A stretch of 64,000 nt of DNA, taken from NCBI RefSeq assembly GCF_900172375.1, contig NZ_FWFS01000012.1, positions 1 to 64,000 of the forward strand, read 5' to 3'. Position 1 is the stretch's first letter. Each line of letters starts with the position of its first letter. The DNA comes from Aquimixticola soesokkakensis (GTDB lineage Bacteria > Pseudomonadota > Alphaproteobacteria > Rhodobacterales > Rhodobacteraceae). The position numbers were made by a program, and so were the translations under genes. The notes under the pieces were generated by a model. It saw only the letters and a list, made by a program, of their open reading frames with translations. It did no database searches and was not told the origin of the DNA. Shown here in pieces: positions 12,261 through 17,683 of this stretch.

Positions 12261-12291
12261 ATCGCTCCGACAGCCCCCAAGTCCAATCCAG

Positions 12292-12317
12292 CGCGCGCCC
12301 TGAGTGGCGCGCGTTTT
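12292..12317 (+). terminator. intrinsic terminator after glk
   Basis: A perfect 8 bp stem (CGCGCGCC / GGCGCGCG) with a 6-base loop, followed by TTTT and then GCGTTTG. It lies 31 bases after the glk stop and separates the sugar genes from the chemotaxis operon. Confidence 0.75.
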
Positions 12318-12413
12318 GCGTTTGTGATGTCGAAAATCTTTCCTGCGTAACGTCGAATTAACGGTCTGCCCGCTATGACATAGGACGCAGACGGGACGAC
12401 AAGGGACACATAG

Positions 12414-12452
12414 ATGCAACTTCTGACACCAGACTTGCGGAGACGGGCATGA
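12414..12452 (+). CDS. possible 12-codon upstream ORF of the che operon
   Basis: ATG at 12414 has AAGGGA 8 bases upstream and reads 12 codons (MQLLTPDLRRRA) to a TGA that overlaps the STAS-gene ATG by four bases (ATGA). A good ribosome site plus exact stop-start overlap suggests translational coupling rather than chance. No function is claimed and no homologues were checked. Confidence 0.4.
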   Translation: MQLLTPDLRRRA

Positions 12453-12730
12453 GCACGACAGTGACACTCGACGCGCGTCTCGACTACCAATCTGTAGAGC
12501 CATTGCGCGATACCTTGCTGGCGGCGGGCCCCGCTGAGCTTGTGATCGACGCCGCCCATGTGCGCCACATCGGCACGCTGGCCCTGCAAACGATTCTTGC
12601 CGTGGTCAAAACCCGCGCCACCAACAACCAGGCCACCCGCGTGAGGGAAGCCTCGGACGCCTGCGTCGATCAACTGGGCCTCTTCGGCTTTACCCCTGAA
12701 ACGCTTACACAACCGGAGGAATGGGCATGA
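12449..12730 (+). CDS. STAS-domain protein, chemotaxis operon
   Basis: A 93 aa single-domain STAS (anti-sigma-factor-antagonist-like) protein. The central DAAHVRHIGTLALQTIL matches the STAS core strand-helix, but the usual phosphorylatable Ser/Thr of true anti-anti-sigma factors is not clear: the motif reads RHIGTL. It is the first full-size gene of the che operon, with GGAG ahead of the ATG, and overlaps cheY by four bases. A small STAS partner is common at the head of alphaproteobacterial che clusters; its molecular role is uncertain. Confidence 0.75.
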   Translation: MSTTVTLDARLDYQSVEPLRDTLLAAGPAELVIDAAHVRHIGTLALQTILAVVKTRATNNQATRVREASDACVDQLGLFGFTPETLTQPEEWA

Positions 12731-13092
12731 GCCTCGAAGTCCTCGCTGTCGATGACAGCCGAACCATGCGCGACATGTTGAACCTCGCGCTTTCCTCGGC
12801 GGGTTTTACCGCCCACCTTGCCGACGATGGCCTGCACGGCCTTGAAGTGCTCGAAGATATCGAGCCGGACGTCATCATCACCGATATCAACATGCCACGC
12901 CTTGATGGCTTTGGGTTCATTGACGCCGTGCGTCGTGAGGAAAAATGGGCACGCATTCCCATTCTGGTCCTCACCACCGAAAGCGCCGACGAGTTGAAAG
13001 CCAAAGCCCGCGCGGCAGGGGCGACCGGCTGGATCGTCAAACCCTTTGATCCGGCAAAACTGGTCAAAGCGCTGCAAATGGTTGCTGGCTGA
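12727..13092 (+). CDS. cheY: chemotaxis response regulator CheY
   Basis: A 121 aa single receiver domain. The acidic pocket DDS is at 9-11, the phosphoacceptor is D53 (ITDINMP), the switch threonine lies in VLTTES and the conserved lysine is K105 (VKPFDP). There are two in-frame ATGs. GGAGGA abuts the one at 12721 but sits 6 bases before 12727, so 12727 is the start. It is phosphorylated by the CheA encoded next, and presumably acts on the flagellar motor or another output. It overlaps the STAS gene. Confidence 0.92.
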   Translation: MSLEVLAVDDSRTMRDMLNLALSSAGFTAHLADDGLHGLEVLEDIEPDVIITDINMPRLDGFGFIDAVRREEKWARIPILVLTTESADELKAKARAAGATGWIVKPFDPAKLVKALQMVAG

Positions 13093-13102
13093 AAGGTAGA
13101 AC

Positions 13103-15505
13103 ATGTCTGACCCGATGGCAGAAATCCGCGCCTCCTTCTTTATCGAATGCGAGGAACTCCTGGAAAGCCTGCAAGATGGCCTCCAGATGATGGATGACGG
13201 CGAAAGCGATAGTGAAACCATCAACATCGTCTTTCGCGCGGTCCATTCGATCAAAGGCGGCGCAGGAGCCTTTGGGTTGAACGATCTGGTCCATTTCGCG
13301 CATCGGTTCGAAACCGCCATGGACGAAGTGCGCACGGGCCGGTTTGTGCCCGATGGCGAAGCGATCAAAATATTCTTCGCCTGCGCGGATGTGTTGGGCG
13401 ACCTTGTCCGTGCCTCGCGCGACGAAACCCCGATTCTCGACGAAATGACCGCACCGGTGCTCGATTCGCTCGAACGTCTGGTCGGCATGGAAGAGGAAGT
13501 CGAGGAGGAGGTGGAATTCGTGCCTGCGGGCATCGCGCTCGACCTCGGCGGACTTGGGGATCTTGGCGGCGGGATGGGCGACCTGCCCCCGCTGGATTTA
13601 CCAGCACTCGACATGCCATCGCCTGACCTCTTGTCGGCAGACGGCCTGCCTGAGGGCAGTGAAACGCCTGACGTCGCGGGCGACAATGACGCACAAGCTG
13701 CTCTTGGCAAAGGCTTTAAAATCCACTTCCTGCCGGAACCTGCCCTGTTCATTTCCGGCAACGAGCCGCTTTACCTCTTTCGGGCCCTGCGCGATCTGGG
13801 CGACTTAACGGTTCGCTGCGACACCTCCCGCCTGCCCGCGGCAGAGGCGCTTGCGGCCGAAACCGGTTACCTGTCCTGGTCCTTGGTGCTCCTGACCGAG
13901 GAACCCGAAACCGCCGTGCGCGATGTCTTTGAATTCGTTGACGGTCTCTGCGTCCTCACCATCGAACCGATCACGAACGCAGCCTTGGACGGTAGCATGG
14001 CTCTGCCCGATCTCGATGTCCCGTCAGCGCAGATCCCGCTTGCGCCCGGCGACTCGGCCGAGACCGCGCCTGTCGAAACAATCGCCGCCGAGGCCCCGCC
14101 CAGCAGCCCCGCGCAAGCGGCGCCTGCCGCCCTGCCCGACCGGCTTGCGCCCGGCGCTGCAGCTGCGCCAATCCCTGCGCCAATCCCTGCGCCAGCCGCT
14201 GCGCCAGTCGCGCCGCCCGCACCGATCGAAAGCGCCGCGGAAAGTACAGAGCCAAGCGATGCACCTTCGCGCGAAGCGAAAAACGCCCCGACCCAACCGC
14301 GCGCAACCGTGCGCGTCGACCTGGAGCGCGTGGACCGTCTGGTCAACCTAGTCGGGGAATTGGTGATCAACCAAGCCATGCTCAGCCAATCCGTCACCGA
14401 AGCCGGCCTGCCGGCCAATTCGGCGGTCTCGACCGGGTTGGAAGAATTTTTGCAGCTCACGCGCGACATCCAGGAAAGCGTGATGATGATCCGCGCCCAG
14501 CCGATCAAATCGCTGTTCCAGCGCATGGGGCGGATCGTGCGCGAAGCCTCGGCGGCCGTGAACAAGGACGTCCGCCTGCACACAGACGGCGAAAATACCG
14601 AAGTCGACAAGACCGTGATCGAACGGCTCGCCGATCCGCTGACCCATATGATCCGCAATGCGGTGGATCACGGGTTGGAAACCACGGAAAAACGGGTCGC
14701 AAGCGGCAAGCCGCGCAACGGGCATGTGACCCTCACCGCACAGCACCGCTCCGGACGGATCGTCATCGATGTCTCGGATGATGGCGGCGGCATCAACCGC
14801 CCCCGCGTTCTGGAAAAAGCCATCGAAAAGGGTCTGGTCTCGCCAGAGGCACAACTGAGCGATGGCGAGATCGACAACCTTTTGTTCCTGCCCGGCTTTT
14901 CCACCGCCGCAGAGGTCTCGGCTCTGTCGGGGCGCGGGGTTGGCATGGATGTGGTGAAAAGCTCGATCCAGTCGCTCGGCGGGCGGATCGCCATCACCTC
15001 CGTCGAAGGCAAAGGCACGACCTTTTCGATCTCTCTGCCGCTCACGCTTGCCGTGCTCGACGGGATGGTCGTGCGGGTGGCCGGCGAAACCCTGGTCGTC
15101 CCGCTCAACGCCATTCTCGAAACGCTGACCCTCACAGACGACGACATCAAACAACTCGGACCTGAAACCCATGTGGTGCAACTGCGGGGCGGATTTGTTC
15201 CGTTGCTCGATCTGGGTGCCGAACTGGGCTATCGCACGCCCGAACAAAGCTACGTCGGTGGCATCGTCCTTTTGATCGGCCAGGAGGACGGGCATCGCGC
15301 CGCCCTCGTCGTGGATGCGATCGAGGATCAGCGACAAGTCGTGATCAAGGGTCTCGAGGGCAGCTACGGACGCGTTCCGGGCATCGCCGCCGCCACGATT
15401 TTGGGCGATGGGCAAATCGCGCTCATCCTCGATCCGATGGATCTTATCAGCCAAGCCAGCGGTCGCACCAAAGACCGCAGCCTGTCCCTTTCGCACGCAG
15501 GATAA
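13103..15505 (+). CDS. cheA: chemotaxis histidine kinase CheA
   Basis: An 800 aa kinase. The N-terminal Hpt domain has phosphohistidine H48 in VHSIKGGAGAFG. A divergent middle region follows, then a long Ala/Pro-rich linker (about 320-385) with repeated proline-alanine units. The dimerisation segment contains LVGELVINQAM, and the ATPase domain has the N box DPLTHMIRNAVDHGLE, G1 DVSDDGGG and G2 GRGVGMDVV. A C-terminal CheW-like domain docks to receptor and CheW. All catalytic boxes are intact. It starts 10 bases after cheY and is followed by cheW after 4 bases. Confidence 0.95.
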   Translation: MSDPMAEIRASFFIECEELLESLQDGLQMMDDGESDSETINIVFRAVHSIKGGAGAFGLNDLVHFAHRFETAMDEVRTGRFVPDGEAIKIFFACADVLGDLVRASRDETPILDEMTAPVLDSLERLVGMEEEVEEEVEFVPAGIALDLGGLGDLGGGMGDLPPLDLPALDMPSPDLLSADGLPEGSETPDVAGDNDAQAALGKGFKIHFLPEPALFISGNEPLYLFRALRDLGDLTVRCDTSRLPAAEALAAETGYLSWSLVLLTEEPETAVRDVFEFVDGLCVLTIEPITNAALDGSMALPDLDVPSAQIPLAPGDSAETAPVETIAAEAPPSSPAQAAPAALPDRLAPGAAAAPIPAPIPAPAAAPVAPPAPIESAAESTEPSDAPSREAKNAPTQPRATVRVDLERVDRLVNLVGELVINQAMLSQSVTEAGLPANSAVSTGLEEFLQLTRDIQESVMMIRAQPIKSLFQRMGRIVREASAAVNKDVRLHTDGENTEVDKTVIERLADPLTHMIRNAVDHGLETTEKRVASGKPRNGHVTLTAQHRSGRIVIDVSDDGGGINRPRVLEKAIEKGLVSPEAQLSDGEIDNLLFLPGFSTAAEVSALSGRGVGMDVVKSSIQSLGGRIAITSVEGKGTTFSISLPLTLAVLDGMVVRVAGETLVVPLNAILETLTLTDDDIKQLGPETHVVQLRGGFVPLLDLGAELGYRTPEQSYVGGIVLLIGQEDGHRAALVVDAIEDQRQVVIKGLEGSYGRVPGIAAATILGDGQIALILDPMDLISQASGRTKDRSLSLSHAG

Positions 15506-15509
15506 CGCA

Positions 15510-15974
15510 ATGAATGACATCACCAAACAACCCGACTCTGCCATTGAACTCCTGTCCTTTCGCGTCGGCGGTCAGGATTACTCGGTCGATATCATGTCCG
15601 TGCGCGAGATCAGAGGCTCCGCCAAGGCGACCTCCCTGCCCCATGCGCCTGCCTTTGTGCGCGGGGTGATCAACCTGCGCGGCACCGTGCTGCCAATCAT
15701 TGATCTTGCCGCACGGCTTGGGCTTGAAACCGGCCAAGACACCGAACGCAACGTGATTATCGTCGTTGATCTTGGCGGGCGCACCGCGGGGCTGATGGTT
15801 GACGCCGTGTCGGACATCCTCGCGATTCCGACCGATGAAATGCAGCCTCCGCCCGACCTTGCGGCTGACGACGCCCGCACCTTTGTCAGCGCACTGACCA
15901 TCGTCGACGGGCGGATGATCCGCGTGCTTGATTTGAACGCGGTGATGCCGCCGCAAGGCGAGGAAGCCGCTTGA
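15510..15974 (+). CDS. cheW: chemotaxis coupling protein CheW
   Basis: A 154 aa CheW-domain protein that links receptors to CheA at the membrane. Family marks are the DIMSVREIRG block, FVRGVINLRGTVLPIIDL and the C-terminal VDAVSDILAI. The ATG at 15510 follows the cheA stop by 4 bases. The stop overlaps the presumed TTG start of cheR. Confidence 0.93.
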   Translation: MNDITKQPDSAIELLSFRVGGQDYSVDIMSVREIRGSAKATSLPHAPAFVRGVINLRGTVLPIIDLAARLGLETGQDTERNVIIVVDLGGRTAGLMVDAVSDILAIPTDEMQPPPDLAADDARTFVSALTIVDGRMIRVLDLNAVMPPQGEEAA

Positions 15975-16903
15975 CCTACCATGCCCCAGAGGAGCGCGCA
16001 AAATTCGGCGCGACCATGTCCGACGCCACGTTTTCGCGCGTCGCAAAAATTGCGCAACGCGAAGCGGGGCTGGTTCTGGCCCATGCCAAACTGTCGATGG
16101 TCCAATCCCGTCTCTCGCGGCGCCTACGTGCCTTGCAGCTGCCGGACTTTGACAGCTACCTCGATTTTCTGGAGGGGGAAGCCGATGGTCGCACCGAAAT
16201 GCGCCATTTCATCTCGGCGCTGACCACAAATGTGTCGCATTTCTTTCGGGAAATGCACCACTTCAACACGCTCAAGGAACAAGCCCTGCCCAAGCTGATC
16301 GAGCGCGCCAAATCCGGTGGGAAAATCCGCATCTGGTCCGCGGGATGCAGCAACGGGCAGGAACCCTACTCGATTGCGATGAGCATTCTGGAGGTGTTCC
16401 CTCAGGCCGGCGACTTCGACATCAAGATTCTTGCGACCGACATCGACCCCGAAGTTTTGGCAACGGCGCGGGCGGGCGTGTATTCCGGCTCTTTGACCAC
16501 GGGCCTCGATGAGGACACAAAGCGCAGCTATTTCGACCGCAGCGGGACCGCCGAGGACGAGAAGCTGACGGTCAAACCCAATGTGGCCGCCTTGGTGGCC
16601 TTTCGCGAATTGAACCTGCATGCCACCTGGCCGATGCAGGGCCAGTTCGACGCGATCTTCTGTCGCAATGTCGTCATTTATTTCGACGAGCCGACGCAGG
16701 AAAAACTGTACCGCCGCTACGCAGAACGGCTGGGCCGTGAGGGGTGGCTGTTCTTGGGACATTCCGAGCGGATCAATGATTCTTCGGCGCAATTGTTCGC
16801 CAGTTGCGGCGTCACGACCTATCGCCCGACGGGGGCGACACCTTCATCCTCAGCAAAACCGACCGCAGGCGCGGTCGCGAAAGGGCAGCAACATGGCGCT
16901 TAG
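15971..16903 (+). CDS. cheR: chemotaxis protein methyltransferase CheR
   Basis: Transfers methyl groups from S-adenosylmethionine to receptor glutamates for adaptation. It has the helical N-terminal domain and a catalytic domain with SAM loop IWSAGCSNGQEPYS; FCRNVVIYFDEP lies further on. I place the start at TTG 15971 (310 aa), because GAGGA sits 7 bases upstream and TTG overlaps the cheW TGA. The alternative ATG at 16016 (295 aa) has no ribosome site at good spacing. No CheB methylesterase follows, which is unusual. Confidence 0.9.
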   Translation: MTYHAPEERAKFGATMSDATFSRVAKIAQREAGLVLAHAKLSMVQSRLSRRLRALQLPDFDSYLDFLEGEADGRTEMRHFISALTTNVSHFFREMHHFNTLKEQALPKLIERAKSGGKIRIWSAGCSNGQEPYSIAMSILEVFPQAGDFDIKILATDIDPEVLATARAGVYSGSLTTGLDEDTKRSYFDRSGTAEDEKLTVKPNVAALVAFRELNLHATWPMQGQFDAIFCRNVVIYFDEPTQEKLYRRYAERLGREGWLFLGHSERINDSSAQLFASCGVTTYRPTGATPSSSAKPTAGAVAKGQQHGA

Positions 16904-17279
16904 AGATCAACTTCGTATTCTCGTCGTGGACGACATGTCCACCAGCCGCGGCCTGATCACCAATGCGCTGGACTCCTTTGGCATTCGCACCGTGGCCAGC
17001 GCATCCGACGGGCCGAGTGCCCTGCAAAAAATCGCCGCATCGCCCGTCCATCTGGTAATCAGCGACTACAACATGCCCGGCATGGACGGCTTGCATTTGT
17101 TGCACGCGTTGCGCAGCGCGCCGGCCACGCGCGGCGTCGGATTTTTGCTGATCACCGGGCGCGCAGATCGCGAGATCATTGAAAAAGGGAAACAGCTCGG
17201 CATGAACAACTTTCTCAAAAAACCGTTTGAACCCGCTGGGTTGCGCGCCGCAATCGAAGCCATCGTGGGGCGGCTGTAA
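16893..17279 (+). CDS. second CheY-like response regulator
   Basis: A 128 aa single receiver domain, clearly different from the first CheY. The acidic pocket DDMS is at 13-16, the phosphoacceptor is D58 (ISDYNMPGMDG), the switch threonine is in LLITGR and the lysine is K110 (KKPFEP). It begins inside the end of cheR (11-base overlap), and its stop overlaps the start of the next gene. It could be a phosphate sink for CheA or a motor-binding regulator. Confidence 0.88.
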   Translation: MALRDQLRILVVDDMSTSRGLITNALDSFGIRTVASASDGPSALQKIAASPVHLVISDYNMPGMDGLHLLHALRSAPATRGVGFLLITGRADREIIEKGKQLGMNNFLKKPFEPAGLRAAIEAIVGRL

Positions 17280-17683
17280 TGACCATTCCCTCCCCGTTTC
17301 GCGGGACGACCGGTGGGACGTCCTTTGAGGAGCAGACGATCGATTACCCGCTGCTCAACCGGCGTATCCAGGATGAAATCATGGCCTTGGTGATCCTCGC
17401 GGCCGAAGTGCAGATCGCACTTGGCCCCACTCTGGCCGAAGCGCGCTCCCTGTCCCCCGCCGTCCAGCGCAGCTTGCAAGCGATCGACCGCTTGCAACAG
17501 ACGCTCGACGATCTGCAACGGGTGATGGGGTTCATGGCGGCGCAATCGCCCCATGCGGGGATCAAGATCGAACCCCTCAGCCATGTCATCAAACTGCGCC
17601 ACCTCGCCCACAAATTGTTTGACGATGTCGATACGCCCTTTGCGCTGGCAGAGGATGACTCCGGCGACATCGCCTGGTTCTAA
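17279..17683 (+). CDS. unknown protein at the end of the che operon
   Basis: A 134 aa protein I do not recognise. Its ATG overlaps the stop of the second cheY by one base, so it is almost certainly co-translated with the signalling genes. It is predicted mainly helical, with a central amphipathic stretch (about 45-90, LSPAVQRSLQAIDRLQQTLDDLQ) that could form a coiled coil, and an acidic C-terminus. No signal peptide, membrane helix or cysteines. A CheA- or CheY-binding role is a guess from position only. Confidence 0.7.
   Translation: MTIPSPFRGTTGGTSFEEQTIDYPLLNRRIQDEIMALVILAAEVQIALGPTLAEARSLSPAVQRSLQAIDRLQQTLDDLQRVMGFMAAQSPHAGIKIEPLSHVIKLRHLAHKLFDDVDTPFALAEDDSGDIAWF

Follow-up and report, generated by a model that had tools for sequence, protein, structure and literature searches.

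The window studied here is a 64,000-nucleotide stretch of Aquimixticola soesokkakensis (Rhodobacteraceae), positions 1 to 64,000 of contig NZ_FWFS01000012.1, which carries a chemotaxis (che) operon of seven co-directional genes at positions 12449-17683. They encode, in order, a STAS-domain protein, a CheY, CheA, CheW, CheR, a second CheY and a protein of 134 amino acids (aa); this order had been claimed in an earlier note on the same DNA, and the list of open reading frames (ORFs) and Pfam agree on it. We consider it likely that the window holds the core operon of the single recognisable chemotaxis pathway of this genome, with a second locus on contig C11 for a methyl-accepting chemotaxis protein (MCP), cheB and cheD, and, as part of the same reading, that the 134-aa protein is distantly related to CheT. 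By analogy with published CheT, its most likely role is to dephosphorylate a CheY and, in addition, to contact CheR. The gene content, the gene order, the genomic CheB and CheD, the profile homology to CheT and the invariant Q, D and Q residues are direct observations. As a bacterial chemotaxis cluster it is of an ordinary kind, with a pathway split over two loci.

A core operon and a second locus

When compared with 11 proteins of the Sinorhizobium meliloti chemotaxis cluster, each of the six operon proteins besides the 134-aa protein best matches its own namesake. The first CheY is 60% identical to S. meliloti CheY1, its top match, and CheR is 47% identical to S. meliloti CheR. The second CheY has S. 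meliloti CheY2 as its top match in the PDB (118.5 bits, against 85.5 bits for the runner-up) at 45% identity; we refer to the two as CheY1 and CheY2. The only significant match of the STAS protein was CheS (28% identity over 78 aa, E 1.5e-6), and like CheS it consists of a single STAS domain encoded by the first gene, ahead of cheY1.

The earlier note had described the operon as devoid of cheB, cheD and receptor genes, which is borne out, and had proposed either that CheB is encoded elsewhere or that the system resets without CheB by means of a new component. Searches of the whole assembly (3.49 Mb in 32 contigs, 98.87% complete) located CheB, CheD and an MCP side by side on contig C11, and five MCP matches in all, the C11 protein included. 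The first alternative is therefore correct and the second fails for this genome. The C11 CheB is 50% identical to that of S. meliloti. CheW domains were found in the genome only in the CheA and CheW of the window, which gives one CheA and one stand-alone CheW.

The PF01339 search of this genome gave two matches, the C11 CheB and a CheB-CheR chimera on contig C23 (C23:111879-112409, locus L002; 717 aa fetched from an 886-codon frame). The chimera, separate from the C11 CheB and without a receiver match, was rejected as a chemotaxis CheB; a chimera of such kind is mentioned for Phaeobacter inhibens (PMC12363192).

The split arrangement in the family

In order to judge how usual this arrangement is, we retrieved 198 genomes of the same family, one per genus, and found CheY2 (E ≤ 1e-25) in 76 of them, the genome under study included. 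The surroundings of all 75 other CheY2 genomes made up the locus survey, the 122 genomes without a CheY2 match being left out. Among the 71 loci in which CheR was seen, cheB was absent between cheR and cheY2 in 70, the exception being L234. CheB or CheD was found anywhere in the fetched stretch in 48 of the 75 loci (convergent downstream in 14), and a pairwise search, which gives a lower bound, detected the STAS protein in at least 48. Because cheB is absent from the interval in 70 of 71 loci, and likewise in Ruegeria sp. TM1040, Phaeobacter inhibens P57 and Leisingera methylohalidivorans as named cases, it is normal in this same-family sample for no cheB to stand between cheR and cheY2.

The CheB proteins of the three named roseobacters matched PF01339, with the receiver unmatched in Pfam. 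A receiver model recognised no receiver in 27 of 40 same-family CheBs, a count to be read with the model's origin from 7 receivers, such that weak receivers may escape it; the CheB of the A. soesokkakensis genome itself has one (E 1.9e-37). As controls, the model matched 80/80 rhizobial CheBs, 40/40 CheY1 proteins and 0/39 CheW proteins. CheBs with a methylesterase domain and no recognisable receiver include those at L244:1048-1983, L245:941-1882 and L246:911-1855. Judged by their domain content, the receiver-less CheBs may lie outside the control of CheA, so the suspicion cast on CheB by the earlier note finds some echo in relatives, while it does not apply to this genome, where the receiver is kept.

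These observations bear on the idea that adaptation proceeds without CheB, the CheT-like protein or CheD standing in for the methylesterase. The idea could draw on the operon and same-family intervals without cheB (70/71), on the CheBs without a recognisable receiver (27/40), on Rhodobacter sphaeroides cheOp1, which is given without cheB in an incomplete gene list (PMC7277832), and on the report that CheA1 phosphorylates neither CheB1 nor CheB2 in vitro (PMC2829493). Nevertheless, the genome encodes a CheB with receiver and methylesterase domains next to CheD and an MCP, together with one CheA to serve it. CheB-free adaptation was rejected for this genome on these grounds; it is largely refuted, and we regard it as very improbable. 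Its removal takes away a false lead.

The last gene of the operon and its relatives

The 134-aa protein matched nothing in Pfam at E ≤ 1 and gave only a chance match, to an unrelated model, in NCBIfam (0.22); PDB and Pfam searches with its first alignment yielded chance-level matches only. A single-sequence search of 61 family genomes found it in 7, and a 7-row profile run over 385 genomes of the class again matched 7, its own genome being counted both times. The six relatives from the 61-genome search sit directly behind cheR-cheY2; aligned with the 134-aa protein, all of them keep D70 and Q74.

Far more family members were revealed by reading the loci from cheY2 than by these direct searches. 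Whether the protein accompanies the cluster had been left for checking by the earlier note: a CheT-like ORF is present in 73 of the 75 same-family CheY2 loci, and it directly follows cheY2 in 71. In L234 it lies after cheD, and in L199 (1531-1983) it was relocated beyond cheD on the opposite strand; both loci are outside the model. No CheT-like ORF was found in L191, where CheY2 is followed by CheB and CheD, and the L237 stretch ends at cheY2. The model matched only 73 of the 7671 ORFs across the 75 loci, one per locus. In 25 loci outside the family (L030-L054, fetched by CheY2 similarity), the 7-row model finds a CheT-like ORF in 2, one of them weak (E 0.0065); many CheYs of these loci are probably not CheY2.

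The 72-row alignment A2 has a mean column identity of 18%, and its only invariant columns are Q67, D70 and Q74. The resulting pattern, Q-x-x-D-x-x-x-Q, is present in 106 of 106 aligned rows and contains the published DXXXQ phosphatase motif. By the count of 73 in 75 CheY2 loci, a protein missed by Pfam and by NCBI's CheT model is a standing part of the che operon in this family, and the signature, combined with the profile, would permit annotation of relatives such as those of the named Ruegeria, Phaeobacter and Leisingera, now entered as 'hypothetical protein'.

Profile link to CheT

For comparison, we used the best 80 of 387 rhizobial loci fetched with the S. meliloti CheY2 sequence. All 80 have a small gene between cheD and fliF, each time with QxxDxxxQ, and from its published place this gene is CheT. 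After removal of near-duplicates 50 sequences remained, from which 34 rhizobial rows were picked. Aligned with hhalign, these and the 72 same-family rows of A2 gave a probability of 98.6% and E 9.7e-16 over 115 columns. The model of 7 same-family sequences alone scores S. meliloti CheT at 26.4 bits (E 9e-8, database size 300), a value that predates the inclusion of this CheT in the model; later rounds include it and add no proof. The three named roseobacters contributed to no model; the ORF that closes each of their operons was matched at 4e-24 to 8e-26, scoring 72.8 to 78.2 bits against the combined model and 16.1 to 22.2 bits against the 7-row one, and carries QxxDxxxQ in the same slot. The 134-aa protein itself is 18-25% identical to rhizobial CheT. 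We class it as distantly related to CheT, and not as a member of the NF047973 equivalog, because it matches by profile and neither by the NCBIfam model NF047973 nor pairwise. The label of orphan in the earlier note gives way to that of a CheT homologue by profile, though one that fails NCBI's CheT model.

A proposed route for signal termination

S. meliloti CheT acts on phosphorylated CheY1 (CheY1-P). CheT is described in S. meliloti and Agrobacterium fabrum as a DXXXQ protein that removes phosphate from one of two CheYs and complexes with CheR, and the structure predicted for the S. meliloti protein is CheZ-like; homologues are named in S. medicae, Rhizobium leguminosarum, Caulobacter crescentus and Hoeflea (PMC12654446). 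Among the papers listed for CheT together with Rhodobacter, Roseobacter and Caulobacter, only two reviews name CheT. CheS binds CheA and favours CheY1 dephosphorylation in S. meliloti, and the scheme for CheA, CheY1 and CheY2 is taken from the same sources (PMC8429497, PMC12654446).

Transferred to A. soesokkakensis, with every activity and partner borrowed from relatives, receptors and CheW would drive CheA, which would phosphorylate CheY2, CheY1 and CheB. CheY2 would regulate the motor and CheY1 would serve as a phosphate sink, as in S. meliloti, with CheS binding CheA and aiding phosphate drain via CheY1. The DXXXQ helix of the CheT-like protein would speed the dephosphorylation of one CheY-P, and the protein would contact CheR as well. 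Adaptation would consist of CheR opposed by CheB plus CheD. The earlier note, which gave the 134-aa protein a part in resetting the system, was in the right direction insofar as published CheT is a CheY phosphatase that binds CheR; the CheB-free reset that it offered as an alternative is not supported for this genome.

The genome has no match to CheZ (PF04344) or CheC (PF04509), and the CheT-like protein is the likely answer to how the signal ends in such a pathway. E. coli CheZ has a single DXXXQ, at D143-Q147, with the same spacing as D70/Q74. It differs in length (214 aa versus 134 aa), in the lack of sequence homology and in the residue three positions before the motif Asp, which is an invariant Gln in CheT rows and Asp in E. 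coli CheZ. Having neither a PF04344 match nor profile similarity, the 134-aa protein was rejected as a member of CheZ; it may work like CheZ without belonging to that family by sequence. As for the motor, FlhA, FliF and FliP are encoded on contig C21 around 169558-171540 (L238-L240).

Several results weigh against this reading. The 134-aa protein fails the CheT equivalog NF047973, for which S. meliloti CheT scores 227 bits with a cut-off of 200, and the relative at L163, whose CheY2 is the closest among the 75, likewise has no match. Pairwise comparison with S. meliloti CheT was negative (phmmer E 0.7; BLASTP none). The 106 rows were selected by model similarity, so their common signature is partly a product of selection. 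The STAS protein shares just 28% identity with CheS. For CheT, hhalign against E. coli CheZ gave 2.9%, with 96 of 494 shuffled CheZ sequences scoring at least as high as the real one. Finally, FliM (PF02154) was unmatched in this genome at E ≤ 0.001, in a search whose control was positive in E. coli, Bacillus subtilis, Caulobacter and Thermotoga, which leaves the motor target of CheY2-P unsettled; FliM may have diverged, been lost or fallen into an assembly gap.

Were the ORF unrelated to CheT and its DXXXQ a coincidence, the failed NF047973 and pairwise comparisons would be as expected. Such a coincidence would have to account for a profile match of E 9.7e-16 over 115 columns, for QxxDxxxQ in the same operon slot, for a model that picks 73 of 7671 ORFs at one per locus and for the three outside roseobacters at 4e-24 to 8e-26, and we find it scarcely credible.

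C-terminal tails of CheT, CheD and receptors

The C-terminus of many CheT and CheD proteins reads [D/E]-[I/V/L]-x-L-F; that of the MCPs reads W-[E/Q]-[D/E]-F. The last residue is Phe in 50/71 CheT, 32/39 CheD and 28/33 MCP sequences of the same-family loci, and elsewhere in 1/76 CheA, 0/40 CheB, 0/72 CheR, 2/74 CheW, 0/75 CheY1, 4/75 CheY2 and 0/19 STAS sequences; the background among other long ORFs of these loci is 16/615. Rhizobial CheT and CheD end in Phe in 80/80 cases each, and the MCP of the operon in 2/78. Measured against each protein's own Phe frequency, the binomial p is 1.6e-67 for CheT and 1.2e-36 for CheD, values overstated by the assumption that loci are independent. In A. soesokkakensis, the tails are GDIAWF in the CheT-like protein, NEVELF in CheD, and GGWEDF and SDWEDF in two of the five MCPs. 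CheD (L001:2069-2593) and the CheT-like protein (17279-17683) have similar hydrophobic and acidic tails with Phe as the last residue.

The receptor pentapeptide has W at position 2 and F at position 5, is mostly acidic elsewhere, and is bound by the beta-subdomain of CheR (PMC7390727). As a tentative proposal, many CheT and CheD proteins could share a docking peptide of the approximate form [D/E]-[I/V/L]-x-L-F-COOH, carried by a variable linker, that imitates the receptor x-W-E-[D/E]-F-COOH. If so, CheT and CheD would dock on the face of CheR (or on CheB) used by receptor tails; the adaptation enzymes would be contested by, or serve as an assembly point for, phosphatase, deamidase and receptors; and the reported CheT-CheR complex would gain a physical basis. 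Other observations speak against a shared peptide. In the three named roseobacters, Phe ends CheD (3/3) and MCP (3/3) and not CheT (0/3). The tails have I/V/L instead of W, and at -2 an L in place of the D/E of receptors; and the strict form hydrophobic-[DENQ]-x-F occurs in 25/71 CheT, 13/39 CheD and 19/33 MCP sequences of the family. Over 36 loci, loss of the CheT tail was not significantly associated with loss of the CheD tail (Fisher p = 0.098), a result that depends on how the tail is defined. Among the matches listed for the pentapeptide, no title or abstract opening deals with such tails on CheT or CheD.

Many CheT tails resemble the receptor tail to which CheR and CheB are tethered, and this also lends itself to another account, in which the 134-aa protein has the CheT signature and no phosphatase activity and mainly binds CheR (and perhaps CheD or CheB as well), coupling adaptation to signal termination. 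The published complexes of CheT with CheR (PMC12654446) and the position of the protein outside the NCBI equivalog agree with this, whereas the invariance of D70 and Q74 at about 18% mean column identity would be difficult to account for in the absence of a catalytic or equivalent constraint. We judge binding without catalysis unlikely and prefer a protein that contacts CheR in addition to acting as a CheY phosphatase. Both the tails common to CheT and CheD and the relatives' CheBs that lack a recognisable receiver bear on how signal termination is linked to adaptation.

Operon boundaries and neighbouring genes

The features of both loci are collected in Table 1. Ten bases separate cheY1 from cheA and 4 separate cheA from cheW, and the remaining pairs overlap when cheR is read from its TTG at 15971. 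The statement in the earlier note that all genes overlap or lie within 10 bases holds with this start; with the alternative ATG at 16016, a gap of 41 bases separates cheW from cheR.

Table 1 Features of the che operon in the window and of the second locus on contig C11.
Feature	Position	Strand	Description
cheS-like, STAS-domain protein, 93 aa	12449..12730	+	PF13466 2.7e-9; first gene of the operon
cheY1, receiver	12721..13092	+	PF00072 2.6e-26; D55 in phospho-acceptor motif
cheA	13103..15505	+	Hpt, dimerisation, ATPase and CheW domains (Pfam); H48 in HSIKGG
cheW	15510..15974	+	PF01584 2.1e-41
cheR	15971..16903	+	PF01739 1.3e-64, PF03705; TTG start, alternative ATG 16016
cheY2, receiver	16893..17279	+	D58; top PDB match S. 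meliloti CheY2 1p6q
cheT-like gene (putative), 134 aa	17279..17683	+	Q67-x-x-D70-x-x-x-Q74, variable linker, C-terminal tail SGDIAWF
Signature codons Q67 A I D70 R L Q Q74	17477..17500	+	signature placed by alignment
Terminator-like hairpin	12290..12315	+	weak; between glucokinase gene and che operon, possible upstream boundary
MCP, 1029 aa	C11, about 204423-207512		precedes cheB
cheB, 348 aa	C11:207567-208613		receiver PF00072 4.8e-24, methylesterase 6.8e-51
cheD, 174 aa	C11:208603-209127		overlaps cheB

A glucokinase gene (PF02685) lies upstream of the operon, and a nucleoside diphosphate kinase gene (PF00334) lies downstream in the opposite orientation. The hairpin between the glucokinase gene and the operon is weak evidence of a boundary, as the 64-kb window holds 10 terminator-like sites where 6.3 are expected. 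Upstream of the operon, at 12347-12362, there is a CtrA-box-like sequence, GTAACGTCGAATTAAC, with 2 mismatches; the window holds 3 such boxes where chance would give 2.4, and the box was rejected as regulatory evidence. In P. inhibens, che genes are reported as reduced in CtrA-pathway mutants (PMC12363192).

Comparison with known systems

Close parallels in gene order come from plasmid records of the three named roseobacters (Ruegeria, Phaeobacter and Leisingera), which show the same succession of STAS protein, response regulator, CheA, CheW, CheR, response regulator and 'hypothetical protein'. In these roseobacters, too, MCP, CheB and CheD form a separate unit, divergent and upstream. They differ from A. 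soesokkakensis in that this unit adjoins the operon instead of occupying another locus, in that their CheB has no Pfam receiver match, and in that their CheT-like proteins lack the C-terminal Phe. R. sphaeroides cheOp1 is alike in being given as a che operon with no cheB, though the gene list concerned lacks cheA1 too; it differs in that the list includes receptors and cheD, and the passage concerned makes no mention of CheT (PMC7277832).

The S. meliloti operon reads MCP-cheS-cheY1-cheA-cheW-cheR-cheB-cheY2-cheD-cheT-fliF. The window shares the order S-Y1-A-W-R-Y2-T, with two CheYs, the STAS gene first and CheT last, whereas its MCP, cheB and cheD are at the other locus, and its 3' neighbour is the nucleoside diphosphate kinase gene instead of fliF. 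Compared with S. meliloti CheT, the window protein has no NF047973 or pairwise match and its putative activities are assigned by analogy, while the two are alike in size class, operon slot, DXXXQ motif, C-terminal Phe tail and profile homology.

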